Shown piece by piece: positions 2,323-60,883 of a stretch of 64,000 nt of DNA; the stretch's first letter is position 1, and each line of letters opens with the position of its first letter. The notes under the pieces are model-generated. The model was not told where the DNA came from. It made no database searches and saw nothing but the letters and a program-made list of their open reading frames with translations. The DNA lies in assembly GCA_019925105.1 (NCBI GenBank), contig JAHGAU010000038.1, forward strand, positions 372,001-436,000, written 5' to 3'. The translations under genes were made by a program, and so were the position numbers. This DNA is from Niebla homalea. Lineage: Eukaryota; Ascomycota; Lecanoromycetes; Lecanorales; Ramalinaceae.

Positions 2323-2876
2323 CTCGATTCAATGATCTGTTGAGACAAGCACCAATGATATGAGACTGTGGAGCATTTATGTCGTTAGAAGGTGGTAACT
2401 ACCAAGATTGGCTAAGAAATGCATATTTTGTTCATCAGAAAGCTTGACAGTATATCGTGCAATGCCATTTAATACACCTTATTTGACTGTGTTGTCACCC
2501 AAATTACCATACCATTCACCGAGACTTTCTGCTGGAGAATAGGGGATGACCTAGCGAATTACGGCAGCCGACAATCACATCTGCGCATTAATTCGAACTC
2601 ACACAAGCCACCCCTGACGTCGCTTGTTCATGTGCTCACTCACTCAGCATGTGAACAAAGTCATGATCGAGACTCCGAAAACCATATGACAGACAGCTAG
2701 CACCTTTATATATCACCATGAAGCTTCGACGAGGCTGAAAGCCTCCTTGAACATTCCAATTCCATCTCCTTCATCAACGAAACTTCTCAGAACCACCCCC
2801 CCTTTCTGGCTTACCAGCATTTAGGTCCCTGAAAGCCCCTATCTCTTCTCACACACTCCACTCCTCCCACGGAACA
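2323..2876 (+). promoter_or_regulatory. Upstream region of the acyltransferase gene with TATA box
   Basis: This intergenic region includes a TATATAT box at 2707-2713, about 165 nt before the ATG at 2877. A pyrimidine-rich leader (CTCC and CCACCCCC runs) follows it, as expected for a fungal core promoter and 5' UTR. No other gene is visible. Confidence 0.5.
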
Positions 2877-3851
2877 ATGGACCTTCGCACCGCTCTCTAC
2901 TACCTCTTCGTCCTCCTCCCGGCCTTCTACCTCGGCCTAACCCTAACATTTTACACCCTCTCCGCCCTCTCCATCTCCCTCCCCCGCTCAACCTTCTACG
3001 CCCGCACCCTCGCCGCCTACGGCACCCTCGCCGCCTGCGCCATCTACGGCGCCTGCGCCTCCATCGTCCTCCGCCTCGCCGGGCACCGCTACCTCTCCCA
3101 GTGGGCCACCGCCCGCTCCTTCAAATGGAGCATGCGCTACACCACGGACATCCGCTTCGAGATCATCGGCGGGGCAGAGCACCTGGACGGGGCGCGCCCG
3201 GCCGTCGTGGTGGGGAACCACCAATCCGCGCTGGACATCTTGCTGCTGGGCACCATCTGGCCGCACTACTGCTCGGTGACGGCGAAGGCGGCGCTCTGGT
3301 GGACCCCGTTCCTGGGCCCGTTCATGGCGCTGAGCGGGACCGTGTTCATCGACCGGGGGAACTCGCGGACCGCGCGCCGGGCGTTCGATCGCGCGGCCGA
3401 GGTCATGGTGGGGCAGCGCCAGAGCGTGTTCATCTTCCCCGAGGGGACGAGATCGAATACCCCGCACCCGGACATGGCGGCCTTCAAGAAGGGCGCGTTT
3501 CATCTGGCGGTCAGGGCACAGGTGCCTGTGCTGCCGGTCGTGTGCGCGAATTACCATGGCGTGCTGAGTATCAAGGAGGGACGGTTCCGGGCCGGGAGGA
3601 TCCCCGTGAGGGTGCTGCCGCCGGTGGAGACGAAGGGGTTGGGGACCGAGGATGTGGATAGGTTGTGTGAGGAGGTTCGGGAGATGATGGTGAGAGAGCT
3701 GGTGGAGTTGACGGCGAGTCCGTTGGGGCAGAAGGCGAGTAGGGCGGATCCTGTGGGGGTGGGGGAAGCGGATCTGGCGAGATTGGTGCAGGAGAGGACG
3801 AGGCCGATGGGTGGGGTAGAGGATGCGGTGGCGAGTGGGGTGGAGAGATAG
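2877..3851 (+). CDS. SLC1: 1-acyl-sn-glycerol-3-phosphate acyltransferase (PlsC/SLC1 type)
   Basis: This enzyme acylates lysophosphatidic acid to phosphatidic acid in glycerolipid synthesis, normally at the ER or lipid droplets. It is a single exon of 324 aa. Two hydrophobic segments occupy roughly residues 5-35 and 42-65. The acyltransferase motifs are in the expected order: NHQSALD (catalytic His115 and Asp120), FIDRG near 158, FIFPEGTRS (Glu189) and PVLPVV near 219. The length fits fungal SLC1 proteins (about 300 aa). The start is the first ATG after a pyrimidine-rich leader and gives a sensible hydrophobic N terminus. The gene is clearly richer in G+C than its flanks, which also creates long antisense open frames that I disregard. 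SLC1 is the closest familiar name; other AGPAT paralogues cannot be excluded. Confidence 0.9.
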   Translation: MDLRTALYYLFVLLPAFYLGLTLTFYTLSALSISLPRSTFYARTLAAYGTLAACAIYGACASIVLRLAGHRYLSQWATARSFKWSMRYTTDIRFEIIGGAEHLDGARPAVVVGNHQSALDILLLGTIWPHYCSVTAKAALWWTPFLGPFMALSGTVFIDRGNSRTARRAFDRAAEVMVGQRQSVFIFPEGTRSNTPHPDMAAFKKGAFHLAVRAQVPVLPVVCANYHGVLSIKEGRFRAGRIPVRVLPPVETKGLGTEDVDRLCEEVREMMVRELVELTASPLGQKASRADPVGVGEADLARLVQERTRPMGGVEDAVASGVER

Positions 3852-38183: not shown

Positions 38184-39491
38184 ATGGCGAAAGTATACGA
38201 TAGCCAACTGGTACGCGTCCACTGAGCCACAAGCTCCAGCTACAGGCGCATGCATGCTAAACAACATTCTTAGGACGCCTTCGACCTCTATCACAAACTC
38301 CAGGAAAGTCCAGACAAGTCCTATGCCATCCTAGGAGGCCCAGCGCTTCCTGCATTAGGCCATGCTCTCGCCGGCGCAACAGGAGCCTCGATTTCGAATG
38401 CCCTGACCTACCCTCTCTCACTCATAATCACCCGTCTCCAAGTCCAGAGATCGCTGCACAAGGCATCGGCTTCTCCACACAGTGAAGAGTACCAGTCTAT
38501 ACAAGATGCTGCCCAAAAGATCTACGCCAATGAGGGTGGCGTGGGAGGCTTCTATGCTGGGCTGTTGTCCGATACGACCAAAACCATCGCCGACTCCTTT
38601 CTCTTCTTCCTGGCTTACAATTTCCTGCGCCAGTCTCGTCTCAACGCGTCAGCAACCCCGTCGAGGCATCTACCGGTCATCGATGAGCTGGGTGTTGGCT
38701 TCCTCGCCGGCGCTGCTTCCAAACTCCTGACAACGCCCATTGCCAATGTCGTCACTCGCAAGCAGACCACGTCCATGTTGAAAGGCCGCAGTGAGACAGC
38801 CAAAACCACTCAAGGGTCAGTGTCTTCAATAGCCAAGGCAATACATCATGAACGAGGCTTGCGAGGATTTTGGTCTGGCTACTCTGCTTCTCTCGTGCTG
38901 ACCCTCAATCCATCCTTGACTTTCTTCTTTTTTGAAACGTTGAAGCGGCTTCTCCTCCCTCGCACGCAACGAAGTAAACCCACAGCTCAGGCGACCTTCC
39001 TCCTCGCGGCGACTAGTAAAGCTCTCGCTTCTTCAATCACGTACCCATTCTCTTTAGCCAAGAGTCGTCTACAAGCCGGATCTTCAGACGAGAACAAGGA
39101 TTCTCAAAAGACAAAATCCGGGGCGGCGTCTGATCGGCAGAGAGACCCGACCAACGTCTTTGCCACCATCGCACACATAGCCAGAACCGAAGGAGTGGGA
39201 GCCTTGTACGAAGGTCTAGAGGGGGAGGTACTCAAAGGTTTCTTCAGCCATGGCATTACCATGATCATCAAGGACTTGGTGCATAAATTCGTAATTCAGC
39301 TTTACTATGCTATACTAAAATTCCTACGACGATACCCCAGCGCTCAGGAGCTTGCAGGGATGGCAAAGAATCAGGCTGAGACTGGTGCTGCCAATGTCAA
39401 GGATCAAGGTCAGCAGATGGTCGAGGCAGCCAAGGACGGCGCCGAAGCCCTTTCTGTGAATTTGAATAATGTCACCGGCAATGATCCTTGA
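38184..39491 (+). CDS. Peroxisomal adenine-nucleotide carrier, PMP47/ANT1 type
   Basis: This is a mitochondrial-carrier-family protein. The closest match by eye is the peroxisomal ATP/AMP exchanger that supplies ATP for fatty-acid activation. Exons are 38184-38210 (9 codons) and 38274-39491, giving 414 aa. Three carrier repeats are visible, beginning with HALAGATGASISNALTYPLSLIITRLQ, then ELGVGFLAGAASKLLTTPIANVVTRKQ and LLAATSKALASSITYPFSLAKSRLQ. The usual acidic residue of the PxD/E signature is replaced by Ser or Ile in these repeats. That deviation is known from the PMP47 branch. A charged C-terminal tail of about 60 residues follows the last repeat. The tiny first exon was chosen because it gives an ATG, a GTACGC donor and a GCTAAAC branch site. 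Confidence 0.82.
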
Positions 39492-41325: not shown

Positions 41326-41658
41326 TCAGAGTGCAATCATCGTCTGCAGGATAGTGAATACGATGTGAATGACAGACAACACTTTTCCAATCCCACCAAT
41401 TATCAACACAGCCCAAAAGGTCCACCATCGTGACAAATCTCTCCGATCGCGCCACAACTCACTGATTGTGTTGAGCTGGGTATTTTCCATATCTTCTTGA
41501 ATCGCAGATAGTCGAGAACCTAGTATCGGAAAGTGTTGGTCTTTGCTGTACGACGATCGAGACTCGAATGAATTTGAGTCCTCGAACCTGCATAGTAAGT
41601 CCAACGCGGGATCGTCAACATCTTTTGGCCTGTTCAACTCATCGTAGTGTTCATTCAC
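41326..41658 (-). pseudogene. Truncated C-terminal tail of a fungal membrane-anchored protein
   Basis: The frame ends in LGSRLSAIQEDMEN, SELWRDRRDLSRWWTFWAVLII and a terminal transmembrane helix. This tail pattern (charged region, then W-R-D-R-R-D before a Trp-rich helix) is common at the C terminus of larger uncharacterised ascomycete proteins. Here no ATG opens the frame: the first in-frame codon after upstream stops is GTG at 41658. Only 77 bp separate it from the amidase start on the other strand. The body of the protein is therefore absent, and I call it a 5'-truncated remnant. It could still be the last exon of a short gene that I cannot assemble. Confidence 0.45.
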
Positions 41659-41735
41659 CGCACTATACCATCATTAGTCACAAGCGAAGCCTTTGGTGCA
41701 GAAATTGTAATCTTTTGAGCCGTGCAGATTACAAA

Positions 41736-43794
41736 ATGTCGGAAATGAAAACACAGCCAAACGTCGGCGGCCAATGTCAAAACCTAAATGTCGAATTTGA
41801 TGTCCTGACCACTACGGCTGCGGAGCTCCAGACGTCCCTGGACGCCGGACTTCTGACGAGCACCCAGCTTGTAGAAGTGTATCTTGACCAAATCGAAAAG
41901 CACAATGGGTACTTGAAAGCGGTCATCGCTACTGCTCCTAGAGCCAGCTTGATGGAGAAAGCAAAGGCCCTAGACAAGGAGCGGTCCAGTGGGACCGTCC
42001 GCTCTCAACTCCATGGACTACCTATTCTAGTCAAGGTACAGAATGCTCAACAATTTAGAGTACAAGAGCTCACAAGAAGCCAGGATAATACAGCTACTCA
42101 TCCTGATCTAGGCATGGACACTACGTCTGGCAGCTTCGCCCTTGCGGGCTCGCGGCCGAGAAAGAGCGCAGATGTGGTAGAAAGAGTAAATGCTGCTAGA
42201 CGCAAACGTCATTGATCAGGTCATTGACTCGCACGTATAGTTGATAAAGGCTGGACTCCTGATACTTGGAAAAGCAAATCTTTCTGTGAGTTTTCCGAGC
42301 GCTGTCCCGTATTACTCAAGATGTCCCCAGAGCTTACAGCTGGTTAGGAACTCAGTTGGTATAAGTAGGTCAGCACTCTTGAAGAAGACTCACGTGAGAC
42401 TACTGATCAAAGCTGTATCAGAGGTTCCAGCACAATCTGCGGCTGGTCCGCAATTGGGGGTCAAGGCCAGTCAGCCTACGTCCGAGGAGGGATGAAAGAG
42501 GACGATACATTCGGAGGGCACAGTGTAAGGGCCGTACGCCTTCTGCTTGAGTGCTCTAATTCAAGTCTAGAACCCGGGTGGATCATCATCTGGATCGGCA
42601 ATTGCAGTCAGCGCTGGTCTATCGCCCTTTGCGCTTGGCACAGAGACTGAGGGTTCTCTCATTATGCCAGGAGGCAGAGCCGCTCTCTACACAATAAAAC
42701 CTACTATCGGGATCGTCTCACAACAGGGCATTGTGCCCGTGTCCTACCTATGTGACGCGGTAGGACCAATGACCAAGAACGTACTAGATCTCGCGAACTT
42801 GATGGATATTATCGTGGATCCTTTAAAGACGCAGGTACCAAATGGCGGCTTTGCGTCTGTGATGACGGATACTTGGGCGGACTTGAAAGTTGGTGTACTT
42901 GATCCCACCGAGTGGAATTACCCGGCTGTTGTCATAAAACCTAACGAAGGGGCAACGGAGCAAATGGTACACTGGTCACACTTTACCCTCCCGCCCTTGC
43001 TAACAGTCGAACGAGTAGAACGCCGAGTTTCAGGCTGCTTATGCTAAGATCGAAAACATGGCGAAGGCGTTTCACAAATACGTCCCATTGCCCAATGGCG
43101 ACGAGTTGGAGTTTGAGGGAGGCGACTGCCTCAGCACTCTCTGCAGTATTAAACCCTCCGATCATGTTAATGCGTGGACAACGAGCGCCTTTGGCTGACA
43201 CATTCATAGCTGCCTATTTCAAGCAAGATTTCGAGAATTATACGTCTGGTTTAGAGAATTCGGCCGTTTACACCCTTCAGGGCTTAGTCGACTTTAATCG
43301 CAAGCATTCCGACAAGGAGCTTCCCCCAAGTGAGTCGGCTCGATGGATGCTTGCTTGCACTGCTTACTAGTCCAGGATACCCTAGACAAGACAAGCTCGA
43401 GAAGGCACTCAACTCAAAGATCAGTGCCAGTACCCTCGACACAGCCCTGAAGCATGCTAGAGACGTCGGGAGGACCAAGGGAATTGACAAAATTCTAAAA
43501 GAGTATGACATAGACGTCATTATTGGGCCCGCGGAAAGTTCGATGACAGACATTGCATCAGCAAGTGGTTAGCAAGAATTTTTAAATTTCTGGCAAGGGG
43601 CTTTTGAATTGACATACGCCACAGGCTACCCTATCGCAAGCCTTCCATTGGGATATCTAGATTTCAATGGGCGTCCTTTCGCCATGGCCGCTTTAGTTTC
43701 TGGTCACCAGGAGGCTACGCTGGTCAAGGTGCAAAGTGCTTGGGAAGCCACATTTCCTCCTAGGCGTCCACCACCCAGAGAAAATTTTGAATAA
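41736..43794 (+). CDS. Amidase-signature family hydrolase, ten exons
   Basis: This is an amidase (GatA/AS family) hydrolysing a carboxamide; the substrate is unknown. Exons are 41736-42035, 42084-42185, 42241-42285, 42348-42364, 42422-42524, 42571-42966, 43019-43145, 43210-43329, 43376-43567 and 43625-43794, giving 523 aa. The frame looks broken at first sight, but nine short introns restore one continuous family sequence. The Ser-cisSer-Lys triad is present: Lys100 in LPILVKD, the GGSSSGSA block, and Ser of GTETEGS. Other family blocks are SRPRKSADVVERLIKAG, WSAIGGQGQSAYVRGG and IIGPAESS. There is no signal peptide. The exon at 42348-42364 is only 17 nt. The gene lies 1.9 kb from the UstYa-like gene; a role in that locus is possible but unsupported. 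Confidence 0.85.
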
Positions 43795-45658
43795 CCCAGC
43801 GTCTGCATCAGCTGATGTTTTGGTCTCTGCCATTGGAAGCGGTGGGCGTAAGGATGACACAAACTCAAAGCTGGAGGCTAATAGGAAGTGGTGATGCTAT
43901 GGGTACCTTGAATTTGACCGTCTAGCTAGCGGAATAAGGAAGATATCAATCGCTGAACACTTGTCACTCCGGCTTTCTTTGTTATTTCTTCGTGACCATG
44001 ATGATTCGAAGTTCTATACTCTCCGTATGAGTCGCAACTTCATTCTCTCTAAACGCCGCGTGAGGGCAATCTAGCCTTTTCAGCCCTCCAGGTGCTTTCT
44101 TCGCTGGTTCGAGACTCACACGCTGGCTGATCCCCTCGTGCGGAGTCAAAACTCAAGAACAAAGCAAGTTCGTCGGGTCTCTGACTATTGACATCGTACC
44201 ATGGATGGTTCTCAAAACCACTGTAATTCGGATGCAAACTCTGAGAGCTGAGCAAAGGGCCCGCACAGCTGACCCGATGCCCGATCCTCATTTGCCCCCA
44301 CCACCACAGGCCCAAAAACACCGTGATGTGGATGGAGAACCTGAGAGCTAAGTAAGGCCTCCCCGTACCTGACGAGACGCCTGATACCCACATGCTCTCA
44401 CTGCTACCACCTAAAAATACCGCAATTTGATTGGAGAACCTAAATCTTGGGCAAATATTCCATAAGCCAGAGAAAATACCGGTGGTGTGAAGCAGAGAGG
44501 GAAACGCACGTCTGCTACGGCTTGGATGGGAAATTAGAGAGATGTGAGAGCGAAGGATGCCTGCACGGATGGGTACATCCGCTGAGCTGTCCATTCCCAA
44601 TGCTGCTTATCATGCTGGTAGCATCTTACACATCGACACACTTACATTTCAACTTCCTGATCGTGGTTTCGCTCTGGGTCATCAACGTTGCAACGTCTCC
44701 AACATCTTTGATAATCACGATGTGAAGATCATATGAAAAGGCCGTGCGCGTTTCAACCATTTTCAAACATTGCCATGGCAGACCAAAATGTGGAAATCGC
44801 CATGCCCAATTCAACGCTAGAGAGTTGGATGATGATGGATTGGGCTAGTGGATATCATTTGAACCAATCTTATAAGTCATCTCGCGTGAAGGGATAAAAA
44901 TGATCGTCAAGGATCTGGCCGTCCATCCATTCCATACACAACATTCGCTACCTATCCACATATATATGTCAGGGTGGATAACCGCCATGAAATAATTGCG
45001 CACTAAACCCCACGTGTCTCTCATTTCCATCATCCATGTATAACGCCAATACTTTCTCCTGTGTTTTTGAGATGCGGTGATGCCCGTGTTCACCGTGGAT
45101 ATCACTGCATATCTACCAATTCTTCCAACACAACACAAACCAAAAAAGAGAATAAACCATTTCATCGTACCTCCGGAGGTGGTGGTGGTGATGGTGATGT
45201 TGACCCCTCGAATTGCTGCAAGGGGAATCAATCCCATTCTGCAGCTGCTTCTTGCAAGTAGGTGCACATACTGATGCTGAGGAGGAATTATCATCGGATT
45301 TACATTCCCTACAGCCTCAAGTCAATCAGAAGATAAAATATGATTTACCTAAGCTGTATGGAAAAGCCGCACGGATGAAAATTCCTTTCACTTTTACACT
45401 ACAGTTTTGTTGGGTGGTCCCCAAAGCGATTTGAGTATTACTTAGAGAGGCTCCTAAATCTACCTCGATCGCTATCACGCATGATGTGAGGAGCTTCAGG
45501 AGGACCCACGCCTGTGGACACTATTTTTGTCAGCCTATTCACGATTTTGACCAATCTTGGTCTTCATGGCAAATCATCCCTGCTTCTACATTCTTTCTCG
45601 GCATATGAGAGCGCTACTTCCCCACCCAAACAGCAGGTTCGCGTATGCCTAGACCCGC
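43795..45658. other. Intergenic region with degenerate tandem repeats
   Basis: No gene can be supported. About 2.4 copies of a diverged unit of roughly 100 bp lie at 44217-44450. Another stretch, 44808-44872, resembles 49520-49592 on the other side of the RiPP locus. Frames at 44049-44600 and 44845-45294 (minus) run through these repeats and match no family I know. Confidence 0.4.
44217..44450. repeat. Degenerate tandem repeat, unit about 100 bp
   Basis: Two full units and part of a third can be aligned by eye. Each starts with a CACCGTGAT-like or TACCGCAAT-like segment, then GGATGGAGAACCTGAGAGCTAAG or a relative. It continues with a CTGACxxGAxGCC block and ends in CCACC..CC..AAAAA. Divergence is high, perhaps 25-35 percent. 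Confidence 0.5.
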
Positions 45659-46736
45659 TTAAGGCGGAGGATCAAGCCCAGGAATATCACTCGGCCTTCG
45701 CATCTGGTGGTCGGTCCCGGGGGCTTGGTGCTCTTTACTCCATGCCACAACGCCATCCCAATTGCGGCATTTGTGCTGGGTGTTGAAGTTCGGCCACGGT
45801 GTAGGCCGCCTGGCAACCCAGGTGTGGGTGATGACCCCGACATCCACGTCGCAGGTGAGCTTTTGCCGGAGCATTTCAATACAATGGTCTGAAAAGATAG
45901 GCTACTTGAGCGATCTCATGTACTAAGATTGAAGGAGGGGTTGGGGTTGCAAGTACTGACCGACGTGAGTACGGAGCAAGTCTGGCGGATCGGTAAAGGT
46001 GAGGGAGCGATTTTGGTAGTAATCTGGATAAGTATACTCGCGTATCAAGTTCTACAGGATGAATCGAAGTATGAGCAATCATAGCTATTGTTGTCGTTCG
46101 ACTTTCCGATACCACGACTTTTCTTACGTACCAGGCAGTGCATCTGATGGTATACTTCGAGGCCGGCGAAAATGCCACCTCCTTGACTCTCATTCAGCCG
46201 GACGACGTTCTCCGTTAGAGGGTGACCAAGCTTCAGATATTCTTCTTCAGATATGCTAAAGGCTTCGGCTATCGACGAAGATCAGCTCGCGTTCACCCGT
46301 GGAGAGAAATGACAGTACTTGTTTCCTTCCTCACAAGAGTCTCCCATGCGGCGTCAAGAGAAGGATTGGGTTCCCCCCTGAAGGGAGAAGGATAGTCTAG
46401 CGTGCCATTGAAAAAGATGTCTTCATAGGGAAGAATGGCCGAAAGCGCAGGGGCTATTCTACAGTTAGCATGATGCCAACATTGAGCGTTCGCGCACTAA
46501 CACCAAGTGTTTTCTTGACGGGTACAATCGATAGCAGATGCAGAGCTTGGTCTGAAAAGGAAGAATGCCAAGACGCCTGCTATGGCAGCAAGATAGATTG
46601 CATGTGTGACCCATAGTAGGTGAGCTCGGAATTTCTTTGCTCCCTGAGGCGTATCATAATAGTATCCATCTGCGGACAATAGAGGCTCGGCTGATAACTT
46701 GCTGGCAAGTGCGGTGTGTTCCTTGTGATAGTCCAT
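45659..46736 (-). CDS. UstYa-like oxidase (DUF3328) with two HxxHC motifs
   Basis: UstYa-family proteins carry out oxidative cyclisation of core peptides in fungal dikaritin RiPP pathways and also occur in other clusters. Exons are 46736-46502, 46453-46319, 46268-46132, 46051-45961 and 45888-45659, giving 275 aa; all four introns (48-80 nt) close the frame. The N terminus has one membrane helix (about 40-61) after a short cytosolic part. The conserved SPALSAIL and FNGTLDYPSPFRG blocks follow. The two hallmark motifs are HQMHC (164-168) and HVDHC (198-202). After them come CIEMLRQKLTCDVDV and the HKCRNWDGVVAW block. The ATG at 46736 is preferred; an upstream in-frame TTG is not. Its divergent neighbour 1.5 kb away is a repeat precursor peptide gene, which makes RiPP maturation the most likely job. 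Confidence 0.88.
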
Positions 46737-48227
46737 CTTGATGTACTCACTGGAGTATGAGGCGTTGTATATCAAATCTCATAGAAGCAGAGAAGCACGA
46801 CGTTCGAAAAATGAATCGACTAGTTTTGTTCTGAGTCTGAGCCAAAATCACGCTCCTTCTCAAACCACAAGCTCAGATTTACAAAGCTGAAGCTCACCTC
46901 CGGCGCAGTGCCATTGTTCCATCCTTATGCGGATGGAACATAGGGTAATAGTAGCAGTGGAGAGTACCGCAGTGAGTAAGCGGCGAATGTTAGTGTGAAG
47001 TCAGTACAGAAGATCACAACTTCAACGCGGTTGAGGATGCCAGGATTGATGTCCGATGCAGGTTTCTGACTACGATATGCATGGTTTCAATATGCGAGCC
47101 CAGGCACTTTAGCAATGGCCGTATATGAAGCGTAGAAGCACCCTCTCACCGCTGGGGACGAAGACCGTCGCATGAGTACGACGCGAGGAACTTCCTGATG
47201 AAGCTTGATTGAGGCGGACATGCAAGCAAAGTCTCGCCCAGAATTGCCTTTCTGATAGTAGCTTCTCCACCTAGATGCGTGGTGGCATTAGTTTTTCAGG
47301 GATGCTAGTTCATCTTGAGATTAGTTTGAACAATTGCTCATCTGAATATCAATAGATTGAAGCCAAGCGAAGATTCAGTTGCTGACGATGCAGCAGATAG
47401 AAGGCAAGCGAAGGCTCAAACTTGCTGACTATGCAGCAGCTTATGCATAGAATTAAGAAGCGAAACAAATAAGCAAAGCTTATAAGGCAGCGGTGTACTA
47501 GTAACCAGACCAGACCTTTTTACGCTAAAACCGTCACAGACGATCGACACCGTATTCGTGGAGGCATCGGCCTTATCCATCAGCGGTCAGGCCTTTCTTG
47601 AGCCTCAGAGTGACTGCATCTTGTCCGGTCATGCATCAAGTCGTTCTCTCATTAGGCAACTCACTAGCAATGATTTCTCATCTTCTTGCGGCGCGCCCCA
47701 TAGACCCCATCTTGGGTATAGTTCGTGGCTTCATCCCAACATCGAACGTCATGTATATGGTGGCTTTTGGACGGATGTAGCCTATCATGATGACCCTCGC
47801 TAGTCAATGGACAGCCGCTCTGGTCCCATGCACCAATTTGAAAGCGGAGAAGCCTGTGACGCATTTGGATATGACATCTAGATCATCATTCCAATGACAA
47901 GGTTCTCCCAGATGGATCCATGGACATATCAATTGGCTCGCTAGTAGTAGACCTGCACCATCTTCCCCATCCCAAGCGGTAAGCCGGATGCAAAGAAGCC
48001 TCGAAGAGGCCTAACACTAATTCTTGCTGCTTAGCAAGAAGCAGACTGGTCTCAGCATGTATGATTGCAGGAACGGTGACAATTCTATAAAAGACCGCTC
48101 CTTCTGCTCCAGAATGTTCCCTATCCCTTCACTCAAGTACAGATTCCAAACATCCCAGACTTTCTTTATATATGAGACATTCCGAATCCTCTCTTGAATT
48201 CCAAGGAATACGAGTCACGCTTTCAAC
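46737..48227. promoter_or_regulatory. Divergent promoter region between the UstYa-like gene and the precursor peptide gene
   Basis: This 1.5-kb intergenic region has no supported gene. An imperfect direct repeat of about 41 bp lies at 47355-47394 and 47396-47439 (shared core AAGCGAAG ... TTGCTGACxATGCAGCA). A TATATA box is at 48167-48173, 55 nt before the precursor ATG. A frame at 47598-47780 has hydrophobic character but no recognisable family. Confidence 0.45.
48167..48173 (+). promoter_or_regulatory. TATA box of the precursor gene
   Basis: TATATAT lies 55 nt upstream of the precursor ATG, in a leader otherwise rich in CT and CA. It suggests a regulated, strongly expressed promoter. Confidence 0.5.
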
Positions 48228-48733
48228 ATGCACATCCGACCCATCCTTGCCCTTGTGGTTGCGTCCGCTGCCTTGGGCATCGCAGCACCCATCCTTGAGC
48301 CACGCAAGTAGCTCAGTCCAACTCGGCGAATGTTGCTGATGGATTCGTAGTTGATGTCGTCAAGCGTGAGCCCCAGGAGAACGACCTGAAGTACAAGTAC
48401 GGCAAATACGCCGAGGAGAAGCGTGAGCCCCAGGAGAACGACCTGCAGTACAAGTACGGCAAATACGCCGAGGAGAAGCGTGAGCCCCAGGAGAACGACC
48501 TGCAGTACAAGTACGGCAAATACGCCGAGGAGAAGCGTGAGCCCCAAGAGAACGACCTGCAGTACAAGTACGGCAAATACGCCGAGGAGAAGCGTGAGCC
48601 CCAGGAGAACGACCTGCAGTACAAGTACGGCAAATACGCCGAGGAGAAGCGTGAGCCCCAGGAGAACGACCTGCAGTACAAGTACGGCAAATATGCTAGC
48701 TCTGAGGAGGCAGCGGAGGGCACTGCCGTCTGA
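48228..48733 (+). CDS. Secreted Kex2-processed repeat precursor of a putative dikaritin-type RiPP
   Basis: Exons are 48228-48303 and 48351-48733, giving 152 aa. The intron has a GC donor (GCAAGT), a GCTGATG branch region and a TCGTAG acceptor. Splicing at the neighbouring GTAGCT instead leads straight to a stop. The product has a signal peptide (about 20 residues, ending near AAP), a short leader ending in VVKR, and then six units. Five units are complete 19-mers of the form EPQENDLQYKYGKYAEEKR. The sixth diverges after GKYA into an acidic tail. Each unit follows a Lys-Arg Kex2 site. The likely core is YKYGKY, three Tyr in six residues, comparable in layout to FYYTGY of asperipin-2a. Unit 1 has Lys in place of Gln before YKYGKY. 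The divergent UstYa-like gene supports a ribosomal-peptide role. The product and its activity are unknown. Confidence 0.82.
48304..48350 (+). other. Proposed GC-AG intron in the precursor gene
   Basis: The 47-nt segment starts GCAAGT, which is the consensus for rare GC donors. It contains GCTGATG about 12 nt before its TAG end. Removing it joins the signal-peptide frame (phase 1) to the repeat frame exactly. Leaving it in gives a TAG at 48316-48318. Confidence 0.7.
48365..48694 (+). repeat. Six tandem 57-nt coding repeats
   Basis: Units start at 48365, 48422, 48479, 48536, 48593 and 48650. Units 2, 3 and 5 are identical at the DNA level. Unit 4 differs by one synonymous change (CAA for CAG). 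Unit 1 differs by one non-synonymous change (AAG for CAG). Unit 6 matches for its first 43-44 nt and then diverges. Confidence 0.95.
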
Positions 48734-49889: not shown

Positions 49890-52800
49890 TCATTGCATTT
49901 CCATCAGCTCATCAAAAGCATTCATTCGTTGTCCCTCTGGACGTCGTGTTGTCCCTTCCAACGCTGCAGCGAATTCCTCGCAATCTAGAAACACCCTCTG
50001 TAAGCGAATGTCTCAATAGGCATGAAAGATCAGACTCACCTCTCACAGTCTCAAAAGCAATAGTCACAGGTCCGACCTTCTTTCCCCCATCTTCCTTCCT
50101 CTCTCTGGAATCCCTTGCCACAAGATTCGCCATATCGATCTTCCTCCCTCGATCATACGGCAGCTTCGGTAAGGTTGCCCGATTGCTATCCCGTTTTTGA
50201 TCCAGTGCATTCCTAGGAACTGCCATGCTCAACCACTTGTCCTCAACTTTGTCATCCCATCGGCTGATGAGCCGCACACTATTTCCCTTGAGCCAGAGTT
50301 GGACTTCTGCCGCACCTTTATTGGACCTAACACTGCCGAACGGGCGCTTCGGTGGCGATTTGGTGGTGATGTACCCGGCGCGACGAGAGAAGATGAGAGT
50401 AAAGTCTGAGGTCAGTGAAGACATGAATGCGGCTGCGACAGATTCTTCGGTAAAATCGATGCTGGTGTGGCCGATCTTTTTGTCGCAGTGGGAGAATTGA
50501 GGGGGCTCGTCGAGGGGCGGCTTGTAGAGCTTGTCCACGTGCGTGGAGATGTAGTCTGTGTAAGAAAGTTGAGGCAGCTTGACGCGACGAGCAGCACGAT
50601 CGTAGACAAAATCGATGTCTCGGTATAGGTAGAAGAGATCGGAATATTTCCAATCGTGACGAGTGCGGGTTAGCATGAGAGCTTTGTACTTCTTCTGGTT
50701 GGGTTCATAATCCGATATCATGTATACCGAATGGGCTTCAGAATTGCCAGTCCAATCATAGATTGGCTGGTGTACAAGATGCAGAATCGTTTTCTCGAAA
50801 TCGTCCGCGTCTTGAGCGTTGCGGAAAAGAAGGGACAGGGCCATGTTTGGGTTATGATCGTCGTAAACATAGGTATAGATTCGATGGTAACTCCCGTCAG
50901 TCCTGTTGCCGCTTTCGTGGGTACAGTCAGACCATTTCATCTCAACTTTACGTGCTATGTCACTGTCACAGCGAATTTGGACACGCGAGAGCGGGAGGAA
51001 CAATTCAGAACACCACGGCCTCTCTTCGCCCGCAGAGGACGAGATGACGAGACGGCGGGTCGTACGCCAACCTTCTTTGCATGTAGTTTCTAGGATGCGC
51101 AGATCACATGACTGAAACCGTTGCTGAGGACTCATCTGCTTCATGGTGTCGGCTTTGAGCTGCTCAAAAACCTCGACTGATCGACTGAAGAGAAGAGTCT
51201 CCGTCGCGGACTTGAGCTGTCTTGGTAATCGACGTCTGACTGCTTCGAAGTATGCTCTAGGGATGTACATGAAGTTCTCAAGATCTTCTTCGTTGGTGAA
51301 AGCAACCGTGATGTTCGTGGAACCAAAGTTGAGGGGTATCGCTTCCCGTGGGCGCAGGCCGGCTCCAGCAAAGGGACTATTTGGAACCTCCTTTTCTTGC
51401 AGATCTTGATCGGTGAAATCCCTTGTCAAGCCAAGAGTGCCACTTTGATTACACAAGGTTACTTTCGGCTCACTCTCGCCTTCCTTGATGGAGAGCAAAA
51501 GCATATACGGAGCTCCCTTTGACCTCATCCTATGACTTTTGCGGCCAATGGCTGCATTGACGAATGTGCGGAATAGTACCTTTTCGTCCTCTGCTCCAGC
51601 ATCTTCCTGCTCGACCGTGACCCAACGCCCATTCTCTAATCCAGGGAACATCTCTTCTCCCTCGTAGGTCTCTTCCTCTGGTTGCAGAAACTCCCAAATA
51701 TTCAAGTTTTGCTCTAGCAGGCCACTCTTGTCAGGAGCATCCACTGGCTGGAAACCGTTCAAGTCCTCGCTGATACCATCGGAAAGATTGTGAAACAGCT
51801 TGCGATTTTCATGAGTCATGAGAGAGGAGACATTGTCGCCATGCAAGATGACATTATGAAGAATCCATGATGCTTTTAGCAAATCGACGTAGGCCTGGTT
51901 CACTGCCGTGGCGCCCTCACTAGACACACTGAAGCTTACGTGAGAAGTATATCGCCGATGGTCATCGTCAAGTCTTGTGTTATAGCGAGCCTTGAGCAGC
52001 CACCAAGTCGCTACTCGAAGCCAGTCCTTGGCATTGAGCCGCCTGATCTTCAATTCATCTTCAGCAAGCTGTTCAAACCGTGCGCGCAGAGCCTCATCTG
52101 GCTGATGCTGAGGATGCTGCCTGACAATGCGCAATGGTTTCGCTGATTGTTCCTTGCGCCGAATCTTTTTTAACTCTTTCATAGCTTCTGCAACGACCTC
52201 TTGTATTTCAGGATCCTTACTTCCCAGACCATGAGCACTTGGTTTGCGAGCTGATTCCGAGACGTTTGGCATTAGTCGCTTTCCAGGTCGCCTCTGGGGG
52301 TCATAATACGAATTGAGATCGTCGTCATCCTCCTCCTCCTCATTATCATCATCGATCGCTGTGGATTTCCCAGGAGGGCCCGATTGGCTGGGTGACAGCG
52401 CTTTAGGCACGTTTAAGTTCGAACTCTTCCTCATTCTTCCCATCGCTGGAGCACCTTTCTTGCGTGGCATAGACCGGCCATCCTCTGGATCGTCTTCATC
52501 ATTTGGGGGAGTGATGTCTGATGAGGTGGTGTCAGCGAGCGTAGAGCCTGTGAATGCTCGGGATAGGCCTTGCAGTCCAAGACCGTCTGAGTCTGGTGTC
52601 TCGGCGCGGGCTGTAGAAGTAGTTCGAGTTTTACGAAGAGGAGCGAGTTCGTCCAGTTGATCCTCGTCTTCTTGTTCTTGCTTTGCTCCGTCAGCACCTG
52701 GAACCTCTTGTCGCTCCAATGCCTTCATCATGGAGCTCTCGATTCGTGCGAGGGAGGAGCTAGCAATTTCAAGGTCAGCCAGGATCTTGAATGTCCGGGT

Positions 52801-53244
52801 CTGGAATGTGACGTACTTGCCTATGGAACTCATGCATAGGCTAATGTTGCACGTATGAGCCATGATCTGGCTTTTTAAAGCGTTGATCTCCCCTTGCTTC
52901 ATCGAGTACTTGATCCTCCGCCAGAATTGGATGCCTTCGTTCAAGCCCAGCTCTCGATACTTCATGGTCAACCTCTTCAGCTTTGACAGAGTATGAAAGC
53001 ACGAGTGAAGGCATCTTTCCAGTGTCTCCTTCCTGTTCTCGCCAATGCGCTGGAAGAACGATTTGTCCGAGTTGATGTCATCCCTGAGTGTACGCAAAAC
53101 ACCTTGCAGTGAGCAGAGCTCATTCACAAGCTGCCTGAAGTCGTCGGGTGCTTCTCGTGCGACCAAATAGCAGCCATGATAAAGGTCCCAGGCGAGCTTT
53201 GTCAATGCCAATATATCCCCCACACCCCAATTGATCATTGACAT
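49890..53244 (-). CDS. Large protein with fungal STAND-type N-terminal domain
   Basis: Exons are 53244-50047 and 49997-49890, giving 1101 aa. The 49-nt intron uses GTGAGA and ACAG and leads to the ending FAAALEG ... MNAFDELMEMQ. Donor choice is ambiguous between two adjacent GTGAG sites, but only this one closes the frame on a natural-looking tail. The N terminus (GVGDILALTKLAWDLYHGC, then a DDFRQLVNELCSLQGVL block) is the helical domain placed before NACHT/NB-ARC modules in fungal STAND proteins. Here no NTPase motif follows. The middle (about 180-350) is charged and Ser-rich. The remainder carries a repeated beta-rich pattern (LFRNAQDADDFEKTI, MSSLTSDFTLIF) that I do not recognise with confidence and that may be PH-like. 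The domain suggests a signalling or incompatibility role, but that is inferred. Confidence 0.75.
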
Positions 53245-54237
53245 GATGGAAGTTTTGTGTGTATTTAAATTGGTATTAGCCAGTCATCTCACTGCCCCGA
53301 ATCCAACAGACAGGTGCTTGGGTTCGGGTAATAAGTTGGCTTTTGGTCTACAGAGCCGCATAGGGCCAGCCCAGGTCCGGAGCGGGGTTGTCTGTGAGGA
53401 AGCGATCGAAAGCAGTACCCTTGACTGGCCTTATGCAGGTAGCTGCAGCTGGATACAGGACCGTGTGATTCGTGGTGCTGACGAGTGCCGATCCAGACAG
53501 ATATGTCTACATGATTATGAGACGAAAAGAATCATAAGGCAAGGCAAAGGCTGAATGATAAGAAGTGACTCAAAACCTAAGGCTCCAACGTAGGTAGGTA
53601 CCTTACCTTATGATGTTACAGAACGATTCGCGGAGTCATAGGGCATGGAGGGGGCCGTTCTAGCCGCAAAGTTAGTGGCTCTCCGTGCCCCTTACAACAC
53701 ACAGGCTTCATAGATGGATAGGTAAGGTACTTGACGGTATCACGTGCCCTAAGAAAGACCACATACAACGCAAAACCTTCTCAATATTAATGGGTGCAAT
53801 GACGATTGTACGCTCAAATAGGATCCGTTGCCGGCCGCTCGCAATGAAAAAGAACGCAGTCAAAACCCTCACCTAGCATCATTGAGCCACTGAGCCACAG
53901 CATCGTAGCAACGTTTTTGTGGGCCTGAAAACGGTCTTTCAGTCATGTGCAGTTTACGGGCATGAGAGCCTAGCCGGTCAAGGCAAGTCGTCAAAAGGCC
54001 TCGAATCATAGCTCACGATTTAATGCGGCTTTCAGCTGAGATGAGGCGGTGCTATCAGCTAGTCGGAGGCGCACGACGCCATTCATTTGAATACCCGCAG
54101 GCATCATAGCCTTCTTTCTTCATTTTGTGTATTGGTCAGTCCCGCGAGCAGAGAAGAGTCAAAAGGTGTCACTAAAAGAAACGCAATCGTAGTCGCTCCA
54201 TTAGCTTAGAAGGATCAGTAACGATGCATGCCTTGAA
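53245..54237. promoter_or_regulatory. Divergent region between two STAND-N-type genes
   Basis: About 1 kb separates the two start codons. It holds a near-palindromic GGTAGGTACCTTACC cluster around 53593-53608 and a related GGTAAGGTAC near 53722. No gene is supported. Confidence 0.4.
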
Positions 54238-55638
54238 ATGGAGGTCGTTGCCGCGGCTGCCAGTATCGCTGGTATTATCACCTTGGTTTTTCAAAGCATT
54301 GACGGTCTCGTGAAGTTCAAAGAGCTCTTTGACGATGCCTCATCCGCGTCGAGGACGATAAGTCGATTAATAGAGGACATCAATGGCCTCATCCAATTAC
54401 TCGAAGATGTTCGCAATGTGGCCGAGCACTTCGAGACCAAAAGGGGGGAACAGCAGAATTTTGCATCTTTGGATTTGAAATTGGCGGATTGTTCCAAGGA
54501 CATCCATATCTGGCTCTCGACAGCCAGAATCCTGCGACCATCCGCTGAGCACGGCGGAAGAGCTTGGTGGAAGAAAATTCGCCTTGCTGTCAACAAAGAT
54601 GCGATTCAAACCATCAGGAACGAGATTGGCCGACATCGCCAGCTCATCTCTCTCAGTCTTTCCGTGTTCGGAAGGAATATCGACATAGATACGTCGGAGC
54701 AAGTCCATCGCATCGGCAGCTCCATGTCGCAGTCATTGTCCAATCATGAAGCGCACGAGCAAGCTCTTCAAAGGATTGAGAACTACTCACGGGCCAGCCT
54801 TCACAGTTCTGCTCACAGTATCCAGAGCATGGAAAATATCCGGCATGAGCTCTCGAGGCTAGAAGCATTGATCAACAGCTCTTCGCGAGACGGCCACGTC
54901 GCGAATAGTAACGAATTCTCGGCCACCCACTCAGAAGTGCTCGATGCTCGAATATCAACTTCCTCTGCAGCACCAGTATCAAGTAGTGCCTGTGCCGCTG
55001 ATGCGCCACCGGGACCTCCAAGGCAAACTTCCGAAGAAGCAGTGAGCCTAGGAACGAACAGAGTCCCCGTTGCTTCCTCATCGAGGGCTTCTTCATCCAA
55101 AACCGGACGGAGCACACCAAAAGTTCAGGCAGAGGCCGAAATTCGAAGGGAAGAACTCAAGTACGAAAGCAGCTTTCTGTACGCATCCTACTCTACGTCT
55201 CGAATCGCCTCGAAACCATCCCAGTCTCAACAGAGCGGAGCTGCTATCCATGACTTGCTCTCTGAGTCGCTCGCCATGATGTATCCCCCATGCGTGGTGG
55301 ACTACATTTCCGTTCGGCAGCTCCTCAAGCATTGCGAAAGCCACACAGCTTTCCTTACCGATCAACCAACAATCAAATTTCAGAAGGCTTCTTCGGATGC
55401 AAAGGTGCCTCTCAATGCTCTTCAGGAGCGTACCAAGGAGCTCCAGGAGGCTTCTCGTTCCCTGCGACAGCATTGCCTTCAATCTGGGTACCCACTTATG
55501 GAGCTCGACATGTTGTTAGGATCACATCCTCGGCCCCAATTACGTCGAGTCGATGGGCTCAAGGGTACATATGGAGCATATATAGATAGTGATGAAGATG
55601 ATTGGGCCGATGCATCCGAAGGGTTGAATGCTTCTTAA
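54238..55638 (+). CDS. Protein with fungal STAND-like N-terminal helical domain
   Basis: This is a single exon of 466 aa. The N terminus (MEVVAAAASIAGIITLVFQS, then IDGLVKFKELF and IEDINGLIQLLEDV) is typical of the helical domain found at the front of fungal STAND and related proteins, often with a weak membrane-associated first helix. A Trp-Lys-containing helix pair follows (HGGRAWWKKIRLAVNKDAIQ). The remainder is Ser-rich and disordered, ending in an acidic tail with SDEDDWADASEG. No NTPase or repeat module is attached, so it is a stand-alone version. It is divergent from the 1101-aa gene. The function is unknown; a regulatory or incompatibility link is an inference from domain usage. Confidence 0.72.
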   Translation: MEVVAAAASIAGIITLVFQSIDGLVKFKELFDDASSASRTISRLIEDINGLIQLLEDVRNVAEHFETKRGEQQNFASLDLKLADCSKDIHIWLSTARILRPSAEHGGRAWWKKIRLAVNKDAIQTIRNEIGRHRQLISLSLSVFGRNIDIDTSEQVHRIGSSMSQSLSNHEAHEQALQRIENYSRASLHSSAHSIQSMENIRHELSRLEALINSSSRDGHVANSNEFSATHSEVLDARISTSSAAPVSSSACAADAPPGPPRQTSEEAVSLGTNRVPVASSSRASSSKTGRSTPKVQAEAEIRREELKYESSFLYASYSTSRIASKPSQSQQSGAAIHDLLSESLAMMYPPCVVDYISVRQLLKHCESHTAFLTDQPTIKFQKASSDAKVPLNALQERTKELQEASRSLRQHCLQSGYPLMELDMLLGSHPRPQLRRVDGLKGTYGAYIDSDEDDWADASEGLNAS

Positions 55639-59224: not shown

Positions 59225-60550
59225 ACTTTCCGAATAGATTGCCTGTCGACCTCTTTCCTACGAATAGAAATGTGGTTATGCGCTTTCTCAATGTTGTTTC
59301 ATGAAGCTCGAAAGACTGGAAATCTGTATGAGCGTTTTCGCTTGCCCACAAACGTGAACCCGCAACAACGCCTTTGCTTCAAAATGACTCATGTCATCAG
59401 GGTTGCCTAGGAGAACGCAATCGAGTTCTACTCAAAATATTGTGAGTCCTGTAACGTGAAAGTCAATTGGCTGTCATTAAGCTATGATGACTGTGATTTG
59501 ATTTGTGGCTTTTTGGTTCGCAACGCCTTTCCACGGATTTTGGCGCGCTTTGCCCGTTTGGACCACGTTTTTTTGGCGCGAGGATATCAAAATTGCTAGC
59601 CACCGTCACCACCACGTCGTGATGGCTGTCTTTGTTTTGATTTCAAATACAATCAAACTCAACCATGGTACGCGTTTCGCGCCAATCACCAGACCCAGCC
59701 CGTAATATATAAAGCCTCGATATCCCCTCGCCCTTTCCTTTTCTCTTTCATTCTTACACATCACTCACTTTTCGTTTCTTATTCGCTGCTCATTTTATAC
59801 AATTCATACCTCCTCATTCAACAACCATCATATCTCTCCACGCCACTTATTCGATACTAGGTCTCTCACTTTTCTCATGTTACTTTGCATTGCTTACCAT
59901 GTTTAGGGACTCTCAACATCCTACTAACCATCCCATCTATCTTCTACCTCTACCTCTACCACTACTTCTCTTGCTAATCCAACCTCCGCTCCGCTTCGCT
60001 CCACTCCGTCCTCCTCCTCCTCTTCTTCTCTCTCTACCTCTACCTCTCTCCCACTCCGCTCCGCAGATATTCTCCTATCTCTACTTCTACCTCTCTCCCG
60101 CTTCGCTCCGCTCCGACTTCCTCCTCCTCTCAACTCTCTACTTCTACCTCTACCTCTCTCCCGCTCCGCTCCGCAGACATCCTCATCTATCTAACTCTAC
60201 TTCTCTCCCGCTTCGCTCCACTCCGACCTCCTCCTCCTCTCATCTCTCTACTTCTACCTCTACCTCTCTCCCACTCCGCTCCGCAGACATTCTCCTATCT
60301 CTATCTCTACTTCTCTCCCGCTTCGCTCCGCTCCGACTTCCTCCTCCTTCTCCTCCTCCTCCTCCTTCTTCTCCTCCTCCTCCTCCTCCTTCTCCTCCTC
60401 CTCCTCCTCCTCCTTCTTCTCCACCATAGGTTTCTAGGCTTCTTATCATTCTCGAGCTCGACCGACGGCGACGACCGGCCACCCTCGACCTCGACCACCT
60501 CGACTTCGATCACCCTCAACCTTGAACACCGACCGAGCGACGACAGCAGA
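59225..60550 (+). promoter_or_regulatory. TATA-containing promoter followed by a pyrimidine-rich minisatellite
   Basis: TATATAAA at 59706-59713 is a strong core promoter. A long CT-rich stretch follows and then the tandem repeat listed separately. The frames of up to 179 codons here encode only Leu/Pro/Ser runs and are not genes. Confidence 0.5.
59985..60425. repeat. Pyrimidine-rich minisatellite and CTC microsatellite
   Basis: About three and a half copies of a unit near 110-120 bp are present. It is recognisable by CTTCGCTCCxCTCCGxC, CTCTACTTCTACCTCTACCTC and CTCCGCAGACAT blocks. The last 80 bp become a CTCCTC/CTTCTC microsatellite. Both strands give spurious long frames. Confidence 0.85.
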
Positions 60551-60883
60551 ATGCTGCAAGGCGAAGTGTGCGCACTGGCAAGGACTTGCTCAAGGGTGAG
60601 TGCCTCGCCCAGCTCAATGACATCGAATGGCTGACATATAGTACCAGACAGGCAGCATGGAGATGGAGCTTAAGGGTGTGTACTGAATGATGGAGGATAC
60701 GGTTGAGCCAGAAGCAGCATGGAGATGGAGCTTTGGGGTGTATACTACATAATGGAGGATACGGGTAAGTCAGCCTCCCATCGCCAAGTGCGCGCCTTGA
60801 GACTGACCAATTCCACAGGGAAGTTTCAATGTGAGGAGGCTGCGGGATGTTGGGAAAGCATGATTAGCTTTGAGATACTGTGA
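60551..60883 (+). ncRNA. Putative spliced transcript with a micro-ORF or no ORF
   Basis: Two well-formed introns are visible: 60596-60641 (GTGAGT donor, CTGAC branch, ATAG acceptor) and 60765-60818 (GTAAGT donor, CTGAC branch, CACAG acceptor). An ATG at 60551 opens a frame of only 29 codons across the first splice. Upstream lie the TATA box and a pyrimidine-rich leader. The middle exon contains a 62-bp near-duplicate. Together this suggests a real transcript whose product, if any, is tiny. I do not recognise it. Confidence 0.35.

Follow-up and report, generated by a model that had tools for sequence, protein, structure and literature searches.

A repeat-bearing peptide precursor and a single UstYa (DUF3328) gene lie side by side in the window, the whole stretch of 64,000 nucleotides analysed here (C38:372001-436000) from the 50.6-Mb, 52-contig genome of Niebla homalea. 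Judged from their sequences, the two genes are likely to constitute a dikaritin-type RiPP locus, in which a Tyr-cross-linked peptide would be made from the repeat precursor. Pairs of KEP and DUF3328 genes are already a known class, and the locus is filed, on its predicted proteins, as a new dikaritin-type member with unusual signs of trimming, the product of which is probably a still undescribed cyclic peptide. The assignment draws on the genes and their arrangement, the design of repeats and KR sites, the recurrence of the pairing in the same genome and the conservation of the core in one relative. A dikaritin-type RiPP had already been proposed in a sequence-only reading of this DNA, and the proposal gains support from the pairing at six of 23 places, from a 99/98 clade of UstYa proteins and from the Tyr/Gly core kept in the database relative P0001.

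The gene pair in the window

The two genes diverge, with 1.49 kb between their start codons, that of UstYa at 46736 on the minus strand and that of the precursor at 48228 on the plus strand, with a shared intergenic region at 46737-48227; the physical adjacency of precursor and UstYa by which dikaritin loci are recognised is therefore present, much as the sequence-only reading had it (about 1.5 kb). The UstYa gene is intact, encoding 275 aa in five exons with no break (minus strand, 46736-45659). In the gene model, exon 1 (46502-46736) carries the start codon and a predicted N-terminal membrane helix and is followed by exon 2 (46319-46453), exon 3 with the motif HQMHC (46132-46268), exon 4 (45961-46051) and exon 5 with the stop codon (45659-45888), the codons of the second motif, HVDHC, being divided by the exon 4/5 junction. 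All four introns are of the GT-AG type and measure 48-80 nt each. Pfam assigned residues 36-253 to PF11807 (E 5.8e-57, 193.5 bits), and both His and the Cys of each HxxHC motif are invariant in an alignment of 23 UstYa relatives. The DUF3328 protein with two HxxHC motifs claimed earlier was found again.

The nearest relatives of this UstYa are proteins of lichen fungi, the closest among 23 matches being a Teloschistes flavicans protein with an identity of 71% over 100%, followed by one of Heterodermia speciosa with 69% over 100%. Judged from this one protein, the host is probably a lichen-forming fungus close to these species. A predicted model of P0002, which is 71% identical to the window UstYa (mean pLDDT 73.4, pTM 0.59), contains a helix at residues 39-63, on which the membrane helix is based. 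Because no fold in the PDB matched at E <= 0.001, and a PDB sequence search gave nothing at E <= 1, no catalytic site is claimed for the enzyme.

The precursor would consist of two exons on the plus strand. Exon 1 (48228-48303, ATG at 48228) encodes what on visual inspection is a putative signal peptide, MHIRPILALVVASAALGIAAPILEP, and exon 2 (48351-48733) encodes LDVVKR, six repeat units, an acidic tail and the stop codon. The tandem array of six 57-nt units (48362-48703) encodes KR-EPQENDL[K/Q]YKYGKYAEE and obtained a TRF score of 650 (5.8 copies of 57 nt, 98%); on account of this score and of a precursor relative in the protein database it stands far above chance. The register is kept through all six units, the hexapeptide YKYGKY is unchanged in every one, and KR precedes each unit and follows units 1-5, whereas unit 6 continues into the C-terminal tail, ASSEEAAEGTAV. 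Thus, the six KR-separated units with an identical Tyr-rich hexapeptide reported before were confirmed. The repeat frame is free of stops over 144 codons, and the shared part of the units differs by three silent changes and one Q/K exchange (counted by eye).

The signal peptide had been described as followed by the repeats, but the two are not in frame: the frame of the signal peptide terminates at 48309-48311, ahead of the repeats, and that of the repeats opens at 48299. A predicted 47-nt GC-AG intron (48304-48350; GCAAGT donor, GCTGAT branch-like site, CGTAG acceptor), which had escaped notice, would link the two, and without this predicted intron the precursor would be a broken gene. Under rules demanding splice consensus, a branch-like site, a length of 40-120 nt and a stop-free join, this is the one join that passes; with any GT or GC donor allowed there are many frame-keeping joins. 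Dinucleotide shuffling of the stretch, repeated 5000 times, produced an acceptable join in 52 cases; the real stretch gives exactly one. GC-AG introns are a rare type, and the three sister precursor genes of the same genome (L010, L012 and L014) seemingly have GT donors (by eye), in contrast to the GC of the window precursor. They share its layout of signal exon, intron and repeats, their signal-peptide exons ending near AAP and being followed by a short intron and then the repeats. Of the precursor features associated with dikaritins, repeats and KR sites are present as such, and a putative signal peptide would be joined to them only by way of the predicted intron.

One precursor relative was retrieved at E 1e-3 from 6882 protein-database candidates, namely P0001, a 90-aa protein from a 13-kb contig (E 6.3e-8, 53% identity over 42%). 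Its three units, NDSKYKYGKY, NDLKYKYGRY and NDLKYEYGKY, and the six of the window have N, D, three Tyr and Gly invariant in nine of nine, with variation at K/Q, K/E, K/R and in the spacers. The conserved stretch, ND-x-x-Y-x-Y-G-x-Y, is longer than YKYGKY, and the pattern of invariant Tyr/Gly, N and D fits Tyr-directed chemistry. P0025, obtained as a possible second relative in a two-row alignment search (E <= 10), was rejected as a chance match (E 9.9, no repeats), and among 183 pattern stretches in viral contigs no precursor relative was confirmed. The strings YKYGKY, KYKYGKY and LKYKYG had no match in the literature text searched, a body of text outside which most subscription journals and supplements lie.

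The Pfam scan of the window covered 21 ORFs outside the pair, passing over those below about 110 aa and many longer, non-coding-looking ones. Among these 21, as the sequence-only reading had already held, there was no tyrosinase, peptidase or secondary-metabolite transporter, the sole transporter domain being a mitochondrial carrier (38274-39488) about 6 kb from UstYa. A scan of the window outside the locus for KR repeats returned low-complexity matches only, and Arg-rich low-complexity ORFs at 2842-3120 and 60310-60669 were dropped as precursors by eye. Elsewhere in the window, amidase (PF01425) pieces occur in several frames at 41475-43800 (plus strand), about 2 kb from UstYa, and would represent either a gene with many introns or a decayed one. 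Two adjacent large ORFs at 49915-53283 (minus) and 54205-55635 (plus) matched PigL_N with 28.1 bits, just above the cut-off, and 24.0 bits, below it, the former with a weak SesA match too, and may have a connection with the NLR-like N-terminal domains of fungi. Long low-complexity tandem arrays of 110-nt and TCC-type units occupy 59991-60530.

Recurrence of the pairing and UstYa phylogeny

A PF11807 profile search of the genome yielded 33 exon-level matches, corresponding to about 25 genes at 23 places. The window and 10 kb (once 8 kb) round each of the 22 outside places were scanned for KR-separated repeats, and after removal of the duplicate copies L003, L009 and L033, Kex2-repeat ORFs were counted within about 5 kb of UstYa at six of the 23 places, a raw count without a random-region background. 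Besides the window, these are L010 (contig C3, L010:7137-7424, core ELYPAPDLGRIKVDD), L011 (contig C35, L011:6321-6650, core VVYSWSLPEE), L012 (contig C8, L012:3523-3816, cores GNFEADGMLAVGNDAESSYATKPKR and FEADGMLAVGNDAESSYATKP), L014 (contig C14, L014:3263-3700, cores GPIAYPDAYKREVE and GPIAYPDAY) and L018 (contig C29, L018:7497-7715, cores HDADAAYEVYEKR and HDADAAYEVYE), each of which is a separate RiPP candidate by its sequence. UstYa is divergent from the precursor at three of the six, the window, L010 and L012. The signal-like start of L011 lies in a different frame from its repeats, and L018, with no clear signal peptide, is the weakest of the six. A 640-aa ORF at L029 with three KR and one repeated 4-mer and an Arg/Ser-rich ORF at L020 were judged by eye not to be precursors, and the repeats of L012 and of the window also turned up in antisense or alternate frames, which were likewise dropped from the count.

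The UstYa tree was built from 22 genome and 11 database rows, with 12 of the 23 database matches unused and the genome fragments L018, L024 and L031 left out as too short; 14 of the 33 rows are under half filled, many genome genes are fragmentary, and a long-branch warning was issued. The window UstYa groups with the proteins of T. flavicans and H. speciosa (support 100/100) and falls in a clade of 18 rows (99/98), five of whose seven genome members are precursor-linked, namely L010, the plus-strand copy of L011, L012, the plus-strand copy of L014 and the window. UstYa phylogeny had been named beforehand as a test of the sequence-only reading, and its outcome, placing the window enzyme with four other precursor-linked paralogs, is favourable. 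None of the ten genome members of a second clade (99/98) is precursor-linked: the roughly 5 kb around these paralogs (L013, L015-L017, L021, L025-L028 and L030) showed no repeat precursor, and they may take part in non-RiPP chemistry or act on precursors that are unlinked. The difference between the two clades, which were picked after viewing the tree, amounts to 5/7 versus 0/10 (Fisher p 0.0034), and that between the window clade and the other placed genome rows to 5/7 versus 2/15 (p 0.014). Across the whole tree the precursor-linked label is not clustered (6 changes, shuffled mean 6.5, 222 of 500 shuffles as low). This lack of clustering weakens the dikaritin reading, as do the need for a GC-AG intron and the single precursor relative.

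Proposed maturation and competing explanations

If the locus is of dikaritin type, the signal peptide would direct the spliced precursor into the secretory pathway, where, as the KR sites suggest, it would be cleaved after each KR by kexin, a P domain of which is encoded in the genome (C24:366966-367136). A carboxypeptidase would trim the KR to leave EPQENDLQYKYGKYAEE-like peptides, EP would perhaps be removed by a Ste13-type dipeptidyl peptidase, and the membrane-anchored UstYa oxidase would cross-link tyrosine side chains in Y-x-Y-G-x-Y, giving a peptide that would be secreted. Cross-linking by a lone UstYa is proposed by analogy with AprY, which would act on the FYYTGY core of asperipin-2a; according to PMC6514808, asperipin-2a needs one UstYa homolog, and AprY was proposed to form both rings. 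More generally, Kex2 processes such precursors and cyclisation needs UstYa proteins; a DUF3328 gene lies close to 22% of 7878 KEPs, and Tyr occurs in 65.6% of the repeats of these KEPs versus 38.2% in the rest (PMC7329392). Computed [M+H]+ values are 2103.950 for EPQENDLQYKYGKYAEE (2101.935 minus 2H, 2099.919 minus 4H), 1877.855 for the EP-trimmed QENDLQYKYGKYAEE (1875.840 and 1873.824) and 821.419 for the YKYGKY core (819.404 and 817.388).

UstYa might instead introduce another change than Tyr cross-links, such as hydroxylation or a dehydro residue, or work with unlinked enzymes, for example a tyrosinase. DUF3328 reactions are reported to include hydroxylation, chlorination and others (PMC12048977), and ustiloxin cyclisation also requires a tyrosinase homolog (PMC6514808), but with three invariant Tyr in the Y-x-Y-G-x-Y core and the asperipin-2a precedent of a single UstYa (PMC6514808), such chemistry is considered unlikely. 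Little probability is given to the precursor being a recent pseudogene, its frames unjoined and nothing secreted, next to a UstYa serving another peptide or a non-peptide pathway. The single join of the real stretch, of a kind produced in 52/5000 shuffles, sits where the intron of the sister genes sits, the 144 codons are stop-free and the unit differences mostly silent (three silent, one Q/K), although the frames stay unjoined unless spliced, the intron needed has a GC donor, and UstYa proteins act in non-RiPP clusters as well (PMC12048977).

The residues that follow KR, EP in the window units and EA or EAEAEAEA in P0001, evoke a different origin. PMC6339444 describes XA/XP after KR as the Ste13 signature, links it with alpha pheromones and hormones, regards it as in general reserved for the alpha pheromones among Ascomycota, and reports it as absent from toxic cyclic peptide and epichloecyclin precursors; this reported absence from known cyclic RiPP precursors further weakens the dikaritin reading. 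The precursor could accordingly be trimmed by Kex2, Kex1 and Ste13, in the manner of alpha-factor, to a linear peptide that is secreted as a signal or mating pheromone, with UstYa not acting on it. The genome encodes the pheromone receptor STE2 (E 2.4e-84, C24:353289-354172), and a conventional pheromone was not found by pattern and profile: WCxxxGQxCW had 0 matches in the genome, WCxxxG[Q/R]xC had 12 as against 12 in the reversed control (the one inspected being a Cys-rich, non-repeat frame), and MF_alpha reached only E 7.7 at best. However, one EP per unit is weak evidence of trimming, whereas the P0001 spacer is strong; UstYa neighbours are very rare at pheromone genes, with 0/227 for yeast-type and 3/216 for fungal-type (PMC7329392); and the UstYa/repeat pairing recurs in this genome with tyrosines as the invariant residues. 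A linear pheromone is on balance decidedly unlikely. STE2 and the kexin P domain are about 13 kb apart on contig C24.

Rather improbable, too, is a cross-linked peptide hormone. Its precursor, built like that of a pheromone for trimming by Kex2 and Ste13, would have become coupled to a UstYa cyclase and be conserved in lichen fungi, perhaps as a means of communication among mates or with the alga; if true, this would connect linear pheromones with cyclic RiPPs, which are kept separate in the literature. Ste13-type trimming, if real, would bear on the proposal of PMC7329392 that linear mating factors gave rise to the cyclic repeat peptides.

Comparison with known systems

The dikaritin reading is to be seen against an older five-gene definition (Ding 2015, cited in PMC12048977), which comprises a tyrosinase, a methyltransferase, several DUF3328 genes and a transporter or peptidase; none of its extra genes is among the 21 scanned ORFs, and functional clusters lacking some of these genes are known (PMC12048977). 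Ustiloxin and phomopsin loci resemble the window in a signal peptide (putative here), Kex2-separated repeats and a DUF3328 protein, but carry more than one UstYa gene and, in addition, a tyrosinase and several genes for tailoring, whereas one UstYa and no tyrosinase was seen in the window, and their cores are unlike its core. The asperipin-2a locus of Aspergillus flavus (aprA, aprY, aprT, aprR) likewise combines a repeat precursor with a single UstYa homolog (PMC6514808); both hexapeptides, FYYTGY and YKYGKY, have three Tyr and one Gly, yet core and unit length differ, and no transporter or isoflavone-reductase-like gene was seen next to the window pair. With KEPs (PMC7329392) and alpha-factor-type precursors the window precursor shares the putative signal peptide and Kex2 repeats, XP/XA after KR being pheromone-like, but no pheromone core was recognised in it, and a UstYa gene adjoins.

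A 2025 paper described DUF3328 genes in lichens and states that Lecanoromycetes have yet to yield a characterized RiPP (PMC12048977). For the question of lichen RiPPs the locus offers a definite precursor together with its enzyme and a core for which masses are predicted, and five further UstYa-linked repeat ORFs lie elsewhere in the genome, so that cDNA and mass spectrometry can now put the question to a direct test. The 987 clusters with DUF3328 that Pasinato and Singh described from lichens (2025; PMC12048977) likewise have lichen-forming hosts and a signature gene with HxxHC, but their two conserved clans are without an identifiable repeat precursor, whereas in the window the precursor is present beside its UstYa gene.
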